The position numbers and the translations under genes are program-made. A stretch of DNA of 64,000 nt from Candidatus Marsarchaeota G2 archaeon ECH_B_1 (GTDB lineage Archaea; Thermoproteota; Thermoprotei_A; Marsarchaeales; Marsarchaeaceae). The stretch's first letter is position 1, and the number at the start of each line of letters is the position of its first letter. Location: NCBI GenBank assembly GCA_003019535.1, contig NEXG01000001.1, positions 168,153-232,152 of the forward strand, written 5' to 3'. This document shows, piece after piece, positions 3,826 through 57,765 of this stretch. The notes under the pieces are model-generated. The model had not been told where the DNA came from and made no database searches. It saw nothing but the letters and a program-made list of their open reading frames with translations.

Positions 3826-3913
3826 CGCCGGCGCGAGGATTCGAACCTCGGACCGCTCGGTTTCTGCTATAGTTTAACAGCCGAGCGCTCTACCTAGACT
3901 GAGCTACGCCGGC
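3826..3913 (-). tRNA. tRNA-Asn (GTT) with one intron
   Basis: Acceptor GCCGGCG/CGCCGGC with discriminator G, D stem GCTC/GAGC, anticodon stem CTCGG/CCGAG, T stem CGAGG/CCTCG. The anticodon loop reads CTGTTA then A after the 13-nt insert is removed, giving anticodon GTT. Unspliced length is 88 nt, spliced 75. Confidence 0.95.
3862..3874 (-). other. 13-nt BHB intron at 37/38 of tRNA-Asn
   Basis: Insert AACTATAGCAGAA. The central helix is CTGT/GCAG (three Watson-Crick pairs and one wobble), bulges TAA and AAA, with a six-base loop and no inner stem. Cuts after the second base of each bulge give a normal seven-base loop. Confidence 0.9.
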
Positions 3914-16347: not shown

Positions 16348-16866
16348 ATGATTAGAGTCGAAAAGACCGGTGACGCATACCTTGTATTTGGCGAAGAAAA
16401 CGCTGAAACCCTGTATTGGGGTGAGTATTTCGGTCGACCCCTAAACAATTCGAAACCTAAAATAGGGGATAAGCTCTCACCCATGCGCCTATCAAAATAT
16501 GAAGTTCTTTATCTACTTGAGCAAGGAAGGGTTATCGTGGTAAAAGGAAACAGGAAACTGAACATAGCAAAACCTACTGGTAACAGTTTAACAGTTTATA
16601 TAATATACAAAGACCTCAGATCAAAAGGACTTATTGTCAGATCCGGGTTAAAATTCGGCGCAACATTCGCCGTGTATATTAAAGGCCCAGGAATCGACCA
16701 TGCCCCCTTCTTAGTCCAGGTCGTACCAGAAACCTATAGGCTAAGCGGCATAGAGGTGATACGCGCGGGCAGACTCTCCCATGGGACAAGAAAAAGATTC
16801 GTGTTTGCGACCGTGACGAAGCAAAGAAAACCAATATATATAACTCTAAGCTGGGTTAAAATTTAG
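16348..16866 (+). CDS. endA: tRNA-splicing endonuclease EndA
   Basis: A 172-residue enzyme that cuts bulge-helix-bulge structures in tRNA, rRNA and some mRNA precursors. The catalytic triad is present: Tyr110 (KFGATFAVY), His118 (GPGIDHAPFLV) and Lys149 (LSHGTRKRFVF). An N-terminal domain of about 75 residues precedes the catalytic domain. The size fits either a one-gene homotetramer or the catalytic subunit of an alpha2-beta2 enzyme whose partner is elsewhere. The odd intron positions in this window favour the broader-specificity alpha2-beta2 type (inference). Its substrates tRNA-Thr, tRNA-Asn, tRNA-Met, infB and cbf5 are all in this window. Confidence 0.97.
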   Translation: MIRVEKTGDAYLVFGEENAETLYWGEYFGRPLNNSKPKIGDKLSPMRLSKYEVLYLLEQGRVIVVKGNRKLNIAKPTGNSLTVYIIYKDLRSKGLIVRSGLKFGATFAVYIKGPGIDHAPFLVQVVPETYRLSGIEVIRAGRLSHGTRKRFVFATVTKQRKPIYITLSWVKI

Positions 16867-16935
16867 GTAGATGATGTGGCTCGAAAGTTCTGAGCACGCG
16901 GGTGCTGAACCCACGCAGAGCTGATACCAATTATA

Positions 16936-17028
16936 AGCCTCGGGCGGGATTTGAACCCGCGACCCACAGCTTACAAGGTTCAACCGGCTAAAGCCGACTG
17001 TTGCTCTACCAGGCTGAGCTACCGAGGC
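16936..17028 (-). tRNA. tRNA-Thr (TGT) with one non-standard intron
   Basis: Acceptor GCCTCGG/CCGAGGC with discriminator T, D stem GCTC/GAGC, T stem GCGGG/CCCGC. The anticodon arm is intact only after removing 19 nt after position 30, giving stem ACAGC/GCTGT and loop CTTGTAA, anticodon TGT. Unspliced 93 nt, spliced 74. It lies 70 bases beyond endA on the opposite strand. Confidence 0.95.
16979..16997 (-). other. 19-nt BHB intron at 30/31 of tRNA-Thr
   Basis: Insert TCGGCTTTAGCCGGTTGAA. The fold is outer stem GAG/CTT, central helix CAAC/GTTG, bulges AGT and AAC, inner stem CGGC/GCCG with loop TTTA. Standard cuts restore a fully paired five-base anticodon stem, which confirms the position. Confidence 0.93.
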
Positions 17029-17189
17029 TCACATGTTCTTATCTTCAACCTTTTTTAAAGGTTTACCCAATGCGTGATGCCCAAGTTCGAAGATTCAACA
17101 ACAAGTATACGAGACAAATGTTTGCCCTAAGCGTCATTATGATAGGTAACATATACCGGTACCTATTAGTTAGGTTATACCGTGATTAT

Positions 17190-43629: not shown

Positions 43630-45408
43630 TTACTTGCCCAAAATGATTCCTGCATACTCGTCAAGTATGTTTCTTTCATCATCTGATAGAAACTCATGAT
43701 ACTTTGTTTTGAGCAGTGCGAAATGTTCGAAAGGAACCGCCACATACAATATCTCACCCTCTTTCAATTGTCTTCCAAACGTAATGTCTCCCTTTATAGA
43801 CACAGCAACGCTCTGCCCTTTTACAGCTTGGTTAACTGGTTGACTATTGTATTGGATTTGCATTATTTCACCCAGTTTAACCCCCCTTTCTGACACAAGA
43901 GAGTAACCCGATTTTATTGAACCACCCAACACTTCTACGCCAATTATTACAGGGTTACTCCTCCTGAACACATAACCGGGGATAACCTTTATTTTACCAG
44001 GTTTTACAATGGTGTCCAACTCTAATTTAAGGAGGCGGTTCTTTTCCTCCTCCAACCACTTAAGATATCCATCTATTAGCTCATATATTATTTGGCTTTT
44101 GAATACTGGTATATTAAGAGCCTTTGCCTCTTCCTCTATTCCTTGGAGGAACTTCACGTTAAACGCTAGAATGACGCCATAGAGCGGGTTCTCCCTCCTG
44201 CTAATTGAGGCCTCTAATAGATCTCGCTTCGAAACACTTCCAATATCAGCTATACGTATCGGAATACCATTTTTCTTAAGTGAATCAACAAGCGCTTCAA
44301 GTGTTCCCAACGTGTCTGCCTTAACCACAACACCTTCGCTATCAGTCTTTATCTTTATCGATTCGATTTCTTGCATCACTTTCAATTTCGCTTCATTAAT
44401 TTGGGTGGGGTTGTTGACAACATAAATGGGTGATCCAGCTATTACTCCTTCTAAGTCTGCCGCGACAATTTTAACACCAATGGCGGCAGGGGCCTCCATG
44501 ATCTCAGTGAACTTTTCGGTGGCACCCCCGGGAATTGGTTGGCGCGGTAGTAAGAGGGCTTTGACTTTTGTGATAATCGGTTCATTTATCCCCATGACGA
44601 TAATATTGTCATTCTTTCGTAAAATGCCGTCATATATTATAGCGTCAAGTGTATATCCCAATCCTTGCTCTTCTTTTACTTCTAATACAACACCCTTTGT
44701 GTCATCAGGGTTCACTTGGAGGCGTTTTCTTAGAAATACTTGGCATAAGCCTGCAGTAACAAGTAGTAATTCAGGAATACCTTCGCCAGTGACTGCACTC
44801 ACGGGTACAATAGTTAAAACGCTACGGAAATCCTTGACCCTATCAAACCTCTCAGCAGTGAAACCGAGTTGATTTAAATCATTCACCAATCTATAAAACA
44901 ATGTATCAAACATTGTTTTGACCTTAGCAGTTTGTCTGTCAATACTACTCACCACATCCAGTTCGGGATGTGAGACCCATCCCGGGATTCTATCAATTTT
45001 ATTCATAGCGACCAAGAAAGGAGTCTTCCTTTCTTTTAATATTTTAATACTTTCTACTGTTTGGCTTTCTATCCCTTTTTCAGCATCTACAACGACTATG
45101 GCTATGTCAGCTATACTTCCGCCTCTTTTTCGAAGATTAACAAATGCTTCATGCCCAGGTGTATCAATAAAGAGCAAACCCGGTACTTCTAGCCTAACAC
45201 CATATTTGGCCATTAACCGCCCAGAGATGTTTTGAATTGCTTCCGCATGAATGAAACTCGCTCCGATATGTTGCGTTTGGCATCAGGGGATCATGCCCGC
45301 AACTTCTCGGAGCTGGACCGTTGTACCTCTAATCTTATCAAGAAGAGAAGTTTTACCTGCATCAACATGACCTAACATGGTAATTATCGGTTGTCGAAGG
45401 CTAATCAC
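43630..45408 (-). CDS. infB: Translation initiation factor IF2 (aIF5B), gene split by a 15-nt BHB intron
   Basis: Exon 1 (45408-45292) encodes 39 residues with G1 GHVDAGKT; exon 2 (45276-43630) encodes the rest. Joined, they give 587 residues, the normal archaeal length. IF2/aIF5B is the GTPase that joins the ribosomal subunits. The spliced switch-I reads REVAGM-TQHIGAS, where Thr40 is the essential G2 residue; G3 is DTPGHE and G4 MNKID. Without splicing translation stops at TGA three codons after the exon. GTG 45408 has GGAGG five bases before it. The L7Ae-S28e-L24e-NDK-IF2 order is standard. Confidence 0.95.
45277..45291 (-). other. 15-nt BHB intron in infB mRNA
   Basis: Intron ATCCCCTGATGCCAA. 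Outer helix GTTGCG/CGCAAC, central 4-bp helix GGCA/TGCC, bulges TGA and AAA, inner pair TC/GA closing loop CCCT. Cutting after the second base of each bulge removes exactly these 15 bases and joins GGCATG to ACGCAAC, restoring the IF2 motif. The in-frame TGA is inside the intron. Confidence 0.92.
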
Positions 45409-56691: not shown

Positions 56692-56776
56692 CGCCGGGGG
56701 CGGGATTTGAACCCGCGCGGCCACATGGACCACGGGCTCTCCAGGCCCGCTCCCTGCCAGGCTAGGAGACCCCGGC
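56692..56776 (-). tRNA. tRNA-Ser (GGA), overlapping the cbf5 stop
   Basis: Acceptor GCCGGGG/CCCCGGC, discriminator G, long variable arm (TGGTCCATGTGGCC region), anticodon stem GCGGG-type with loop CTGGAGA, T stem GCGGG/CCCGC. No intron. The first 15 bases are also the last 15 coding bases of cbf5, whose TAG stop is in the D arm. Confidence 0.96.
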
Positions 56777-57765
56777 ATCAACATTTATTGGTTCGAGCAC
56801 CCTTATTGGTGTTGCTACTATGCCACTTTCTATACCACGCAAGTCTTCAGCGTTCCTCAAACAGCGCACCACTTCTATAAGCTCTCCGTTTTCGGAGCAG
56901 ACAAAGGCTTCGCCTCCACTTTTTATGTCGTTCGATATACAAATCACGCCACGAACGCTGAGGGAAGCTCCCGTATAGAGGTTTTTCTTGGCCGATTCCC
57001 TTACGATGATTAAGGGCTTATCTACCAGTATTTCTTCTATTGGGTTAAGTACCTTAGTTAGCTCTGATGATTCTCCCGTCTCTTTGTAAACCAAGGTATA
57101 GTATGCTAGCTGATTGAGTGTCACAGTACTTGACTCATCAAATACGCCGCTCCTTATCCGTCTGAGTTCAATCATATTTATTCCCACACCGATGGCTTCA
57201 CCCACATCGAAGCATAGTTTTCGGATGTATGTTCCGGATTCAACATGAGCCTTAAACAAGACATAGTTACTATCTGATTCAAGTGGAATAAATGAGTATA
57301 TACGACGCTTTCTTATGCTACGCTTAACCGCTGATTTCATTGGTGGCGTCTGATAAATTACCGTTTCAAACTCCTTCATTATATTATAGACTTCTTTAAT
57401 ATCGATAGCCTCATGCAACTTCATTATCCCAACATAAACCTTATCCGTGTTCATAAGCCATTTAAGTAAACGATTGGCGGAATTCAAAGTAACAGTTAAA
57501 ACGCCACTAACAGGGGGATTTCCCCGTATTCCACTAGGGTCCCCCCGTGGCCAATCTTTTTCACGTTCAATAGGCGACCAACCCACGCCGTTACCTCATG
57601 GCTACTGGGTCCACGCGGCTTATCAATATTAATAAAACTCCTCATTAGCAGAGAGTTGACGTCAGAATATAATTCGCGGGGATTCCTATAATCCCAGCCA
57701 ACATCCTCCCTTAGCATCAAAAAATTATCCCTATCCCTTTGAACGGGAAGAAACACTTCTATCAT
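56762..57765 (-). CDS. cbf5: tRNA/rRNA pseudouridine synthase Cbf5, gene split by a 14-nt BHB intron
   Basis: Exon 1 (57765-57534) and exon 2 (57519-56762) join to 329 residues, normal for archaeal Cbf5, the catalytic protein of H/ACA RNPs. The catalytic motif reads IGHGGTL-D-PPVSGVL; Asp78 is encoded by G from exon 1 and AT from exon 2. The C-terminal PUA domain follows (about 235-320). Unspliced, translation shifts frame and stops 12 codons later without the catalytic Asp context. ATG 57765 overlaps the cmk stop by 4 bases. Crenarchaeal cbf5 genes are known to carry such introns. Confidence 0.95.
57520..57533 (-). other. 14-nt BHB intron in cbf5 mRNA
   Basis: Intron TGGAATACGGGGAA. Outer helix GGGGGA/TCCCCC, central helix CCCT/GGGG (one wobble), bulges AGT and AAA, seven-base loop GGAATAC. 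Standard cuts leave CTAG joined to ATCCCC, creating codon GAT. Length is not a multiple of three, so retention also shifts the frame. Confidence 0.93.

Follow-up and report, generated by a model that had tools for sequence, protein, structure and literature searches.

A predicted tRNA-type (BHB) intron in the gene for archaeal initiation factor IF2/aIF5B lies at one site in four classes

Introduction

The pre-mRNA of cbf5 contains a BHB intron of 16-44 nt in Desulfurococcales and Sulfolobales (Watanabe 2002; Yokobori 2009, PMC2738675). The cut rule given for this intron places EndA cleavage behind the second base of each bulge (PMC2738675). In Haloferax, HVO_1309 has a BHB intron in the 5'-UTR of its mRNA, and this intron is cut by EndA (PMC7714728). 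Within the open-licence papers searched, cbf5 is the only gene with described BHB introns in coding sequence, and the Haloferax 5'-UTR case stands beside it (PMC2738675, PMC7714728); archaeal pre-mRNA splicing has so far rested on this single coding gene. A BHB intron in infB, the gene for IF2/aIF5B, is not mentioned in these papers, in agreement with an earlier reading of the present DNA from its sequence alone (hereafter the sequence-only reading), which knew of none in IF2; an earlier report elsewhere is possible.

Here, we analyze a stretch of 64,000 nucleotides (the window) from the genome of Candidatus Marsarchaeota G2 archaeon ECH_B_1, together with infB genes from related archaea. Based on these comparisons, infB very probably carries a BHB intron at residues 39/40 that would be cut out by EndA, with RtcB joining the exons.

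Results

A 15-nt insert breaks infB directly before the switch-I Thr

The archaeal IF2/aIF5B gene lies on the minus strand of the window, with a GTG start at 45408 (Table 1). In the letters of the window, its frame runs from the P-loop GHVDAGKT through VAGM to I-P-TGA and then continues, in the same frame, with TQHIGA; the unspliced gene reads V A G M I P stop. At the junction, the minus strand reads ...GTT GCG GGC ATG / ATCCCCTGATGCCAA / ACG CAA CAT ATC..., which places the insert at the boundary of residues 39/40 of aIF5B, directly before the switch-I Thr and 117 nt downstream of the coding start. Without the insert, the gene encodes 587 aa; this product scores 724 bits against NCBIfam aIF-2 (TIGR00491) and aligns without gaps to structures 5fg3 and 1g7r across the junction and through switch I.

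These results bear out the sequence-only reading, which had placed a 15-nt BHB intron at 45277-45291; its coordinates and cut sites are exact. The TGA that it had reported as breaking the frame after G1 sits inside the 15-nt insert, and the standard cuts, as it had claimed, excise exactly the insert and rebuild switch I, with VAGM/TQHIGA aligning gapless to the solved aIF5B structures.

Table 1. Positions of the predicted introns, exons, BHB elements and splicing endonuclease gene in the window
Feature	Position	Strand	Remarks
BHB intron of infB	45277..45291	-	ATCCCCTGATGCCAA, 15 nt, in-frame TGA
infB exon 1	45292..45408	-	39 codons from GTG 45408-45406; P-loop GHVDAGKT; residues 1-39, the last ones VAGM
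infB exon 2	43630..45276	-	residues 40-587, from TQHIGA... to the stop codon
Outer helix, 5' strand GTTGCG (exon 1)	45298..45303	-	pairs with 45270-45275; two-sided changes at 2 of its pairs in relatives
Central 4-bp helix, 5' strand GGCA (exon 1)	45294..45297	-	pair counting in relatives
5' bulge TGA	45291..45293	-	predicted cut after second base (45292/45291)
Central helix, 3' strand TGCC (intron)	45279..45282	-	pair counting in relatives
3' bulge AAA	45276..45278	-	predicted cut after second base (45277/45276)
Outer helix, 3' strand CGCAAC (exon 2)	45270..45275	-	pair counting in relatives
cbf5 intron	57520..57533	-	TGGAATACGGGGAA, 14 nt; splits catalytic Asp codon G/AT; known kind
cbf5 exon 1	57534..57765	-	
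cbf5 exon 2	56762..57519	-	
endA, tRNA-intron lyase (catalytic and N-terminal domains)	16348..16866	+	TIGR00324 over cut-off; predicted cutting enzyme

A broken frame of this kind, seen in one metagenome-assembled genome, could be an artefact of sequencing or assembly or the mark of a decayed pseudogene, and the source genome is indeed a draft of 66 contigs with an estimated contamination of 4.39%. However, this copy is the only full-length infB in the 2.55-Mb draft (two further matches are weak GTPase-domain paralogues), and the remainder of its frame is intact. Different sequences interrupt the same site in relatives, 43 species in all, and the covariation described below is strong; we regard error or decay as extremely improbable. 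An Rfam search found no group I/II intron match in the window, and the inserts at the infB site, at 15-33 nt with stops or frameshifts, contain neither a group I/II ribozyme core nor an in-frame intein ORF.

The junction folds into a relaxed BHB

Based on comparison with shuffled sequences, the infB junction region has a folding z of -4.9, and 0/200 shuffles folded as well. We recovered the helices GTTGCG/CGCAAC and GGCA/TGCC and the bulges TGA and AAA that the sequence-only reading had drawn, with the window copy classed as a relaxed BHB because its inner helix comprises only 2 bp and its lowest-energy fold contains an extra U-A pair. In that fold, which lies ~3 kcal/mol lower than the strict BHB, one bulge base is paired and the central helix is extended. 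Of the BHBs seen, that of the window is the weakest, whereas the canonical helix-bulge-4bp-bulge-helix is predicted for four relatives from the same family (G002-G005). A 4-bp helix with a 3-nt bulge at either end, one on each strand, is found in the relatives in canonical form and in the window copy in relaxed form.

We also scanned both strands of the window, without bias, for BHB motifs whose excision joins two broken frames. The scan returned 6 candidates, and the convincing two are the infB intron and the known cbf5 intron. Three further candidates, located between ordinary neighbouring genes, were rejected as mRNA introns; one at 44156-44192 on the plus strand, which is antisense inside infB and fits marginally, was likewise rejected.

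In cbf5, the BHB cuts take out TGGAATACGGGGAA and restore the catalytic Asp codon, and the known position of the cbf5 intron, between the first and second base of this codon, matches that in the window (PMC2738675). The cbf5 intron of the window is an internal positive control. The cbf5 gene was found in 8 genomes of the order and is interrupted at that position in every one, and the range of the predicted cbf5 intron now extends beyond Desulfurococcales and Sulfolobales. The infB intron lies in another gene and is not of the cbf5 type; in the window, cbf5 has a separate intron at the site typical of that gene.

Different inserts occupy the same site throughout the order

Our sample of the source order comprised 10 genomes from two families and five genera, including a same-genus relative (archaeon isolate B26, CADDZQ010000002.1). 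In all 10, infB is broken at the same codon boundary, and each genome has a different insert there, with variation in both sequence and length; examples from relatives are ATCCTGTAAAAGGATGCTAG, ATCTCATAGCGAGATGCCAA, ATCCGAAACCATTCGTCGGATGCCAG and TTCCGCGCGCCTTTTGCGGATGCCAA, and with the standard cuts every one of these genes regains its frame. Of 50 genomes sampled from the remaining families of the class, 49 read through the site; the exception (G018) is broken elsewhere. Using a MAFFT alignment of the order, which is independent of the structure, we found 99.2% of cells paired and 13 compensatory cells, with five pairs changed on both sides; covariation as high was seen in 0/500 shuffles.

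IF2 of one genome of the same class (G030) is identical to chain 5fg3 over 617 residues; we take this chain to be Aeropyrum pernix aIF5B. The source order, which is uncultured, belongs to the class that includes Aeropyrum pernix, and we infer that this class is Thermoproteia of GTDB.

The insert recurs in three other classes

We searched 398 genomes of the phylum with a covariance model (R1) built from the ten order genomes. The matches had an insert at the same site in many other families and an intronless site, spanning 49 nt, in others, and a base-by-base reading of the DNA bore this out. With a second covariance model (R2) and searches through whole classes, we found the intron in 27/40 species in the class of G254, 2/7 in the class of G242 and 4/12 in the class of G269. 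Within the class of G254, the site is unbroken in families f36, f55, f59 and f60 and in species G240, G247 and G372 of family f19. Including the order, the intron is present in at least 43 species from 11 families and four classes. In distant Aenigmatarchaeota genes, a related-locus search yielded no infB intron readable with the motif search. The sequence-only reading had proposed an alignment of infB from related genomes as a check, and this comparison upholds it: the insert, with a conserved and covarying BHB, is present in 10/10 genomes of the order and in at least 33 species of three other classes.

We examined a set of 36 infB sequences base by base. Their introns are 15-33 nt long and include all three remainders modulo 3; in every gene (36/36), the unspliced frame stops within 21 codons and the BHB cuts excise the insert cleanly and in frame. 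Across this set, 98.3% of cells are paired, with compensatory changes in 105. Covariation scored 0.587 here, compared with 0.186 for shuffled sequences and ≤0.10 in slid controls, with 0/500 shuffles as high; the alignment was fitted to the structure, which makes the score lean upward, and the independent MAFFT alignment of the order agrees with the result.

The size and phase of these inserts also bear on recoding, in which TGA would be read as an amino acid and switch I would gain a 5-residue insertion. The insert in the window would allow this, as its 15 nt are in frame but for one TGA. However, the relatives' inserts range over 17-33 nt in all three phases, with TAA, TAG or TGA as the stop, and frameshifting inserts of 20 and 26 nt occur in close relatives. 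Recoding would disrupt the nearly invariant switch I and leave the covarying helices unexplained, and we give it almost no credence.

Codon choice in the exon half of the BHB

The outer helix of the BHB is formed by coding bases, with Ala/Val and Gly codons upstream of the site (A/V-G-G) pairing with Thr-Gln-His codons downstream of it (T-Q-H). All six outer pairs are complete in 33 of the 36 intron-bearing genes (five pairs in the other 3) and in 1 of 25 intronless genes, a contrast that stems partly from amino-acid differences, as many intronless genes have Pro in place of Ala. The wobble base of the Gly codon does not have this limitation: it is G, as needed for pairing, in 36/36 intron-bearing genes and 3/25 intronless genes. 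As read from these gene sequences, codon choice is what maintains the exon half of the putative BHB.

Alternatively, infB could be a split gene, in which a 41-residue N-terminal piece and a downstream protein reinitiated at ATG 45213 either assemble or act separately. A downstream ORF of 527 aa with this ATG is present, and Nanoarchaeota are known to have split protein genes (PMC3655853). Yet the downstream product would lack the P-loop and switch I, and a split gene leaves unexplained the exact closure of the frame at the BHB cuts in 36 genes, the codon choice and the covariation. We consider it very improbable and favor the BHB intron.

Splicing machinery and tRNA introns

The window itself contains endA (Table 1), and rtcB is encoded elsewhere in the genome (G000:C19, 578 bits). 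A broad-specificity EndA is expected to have a structural partner subunit. A PF01974 search did not find this partner in the genome of the window (G000), a result that counts against the proposed splicing; in G004-G006 and in G008, the search gave an additional match to a second EndA-like subunit.

ARAGORN identified introns of 19 and 13 nt in tRNA-Thr(TGT) and tRNA-Asn(GTT) of the window. The tRNA-Thr(TGT) gene (16935-17029, minus strand) is downstream of endA and faces it, and its 19-nt intron lies on the 5' side of the anticodon arm. The tRNA-Asn(GTT) gene with the 13-nt intron (3826-3913, minus strand) escaped the default tRNA scan; Rfam detected it, as did ARAGORN when introns were permitted.

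Gain and loss of the intron

In a protein tree of 70 aIF5B sequences, seven changes of intron state are needed, at least four of which are forced by well-supported branches. Either a single old gain with many subsequent losses or several separate gains, at a site predisposed to them, may lie behind this pattern. Losses within f19 look recent because G240 retains most of the exon helix. Parallel gain is plausible, as the codons for A-G-G-x-T-Q-H easily form the outer helix and the codons of one intronless infB (L090, in G400) already form all six outer pairs; the L090 site is possibly a proto-splice site or the trace of a lost intron.

In family f30, two infB genes (L096 in G269 and L101 in G248) have a second BHB-like insert of 17-18 nt in the P-loop, at GH/VDHGKT. 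With two inserts, such an mRNA would need two splicing events, and the second insert suggests that gains do occur in infB.

Discussion

We propose that the infB pre-mRNA would fold by pairing GTTGCG of exon 1 with CGCAAC of exon 2 and GGCA of exon 1 with TGCC of the intron, with one 3-nt bulge left on each strand. EndA would be expected to cut behind the second base of each bulge and RtcB to ligate the exons, and the spliced mRNA alone would encode a working aIF5B GTPase. Splicing would then come before the first productive ribosome; because the intron lies 117 nt into the coding region and ribosomes would stop there, it must precede or compete with the first ribosomes. Production of aIF5B thus apparently requires prior splicing of the infB message.

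A real intron could also be regulatory. Its retention would make the mRNA untranslatable, so that EndA/RtcB capacity would set the level of aIF5B and couple tRNA maturation to initiation. Consistent with this, translation of the unspliced mRNA would end within 21 codons in each of the species examined, the intron is retained in many lineages, and the Haloferax 5'-UTR BHB intron influences the expression of its gene (PMC7714728). However, the intron is absent without obvious replacement in the same-class species and families noted above (G240, G247, G372; f36, f55, f59, f60), and a neutral, hard-to-lose intron accounts for the data equally well; we consider a regulatory role unlikely. It is slightly less likely still that the intron is ancient in Thermoproteota and was kept as a checkpoint, with aIF5B and initiation depending, via one endonuclease, on working tRNA-splicing machinery.

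The infB case indicates that tRNA-type introns would be able to persist for a very long time inside essential mRNAs. It also has a practical side, in that standard gene callers split this core marker in whole lineages. The intron offers a natural model for studying why introns of this type are retained and how splicing outruns the ribosome, and its deep conservation over many species makes existing RNA data usable as a test.

The infB intron can be compared with several known systems. It shares with archaeal tRNA introns, whether canonical or relaxed BHB, the same fold and the same expected enzymes, EndA and RtcB; unlike them, it lies in an mRNA, and its outer helix must be written in conserved codons. 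The HVO_1309 intron is likewise an mRNA BHB intron, but it lies in an untranslated leader and breaks no frame. IF2 inteins near the P-loop also interrupt infB by the GTPase core, but they are long in-frame inserts removed by protein splicing, whereas the insert in the window has 15 nt and a stop. Five genomes among those searched (G012, G014, G016, G049 and G052; loci including L012 and L024) have open infB frames of ~770-1180 aa in which the IF2 match starts from residue 14-18, which suggests P-loop inteins.

The closest system is the cbf5 intron. Like it, the infB intron is a short BHB intron in a coding region, with the same cuts expected at the bulges and a patchy pattern of gain and loss, and it too interrupts a core motif in an essential protein of RNA or translation. 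Unlike it, the intron described here interrupts infB/aIF5B, falls between codons instead of inside an Asp codon, occurs in four or more classes rather than in a small number of related orders, and at its shortest has 15 nt. As predicted from the genes compared here, the infB intron is the second case of a BHB intron in a coding gene after cbf5, new and widespread, in an essential translation GTPase.
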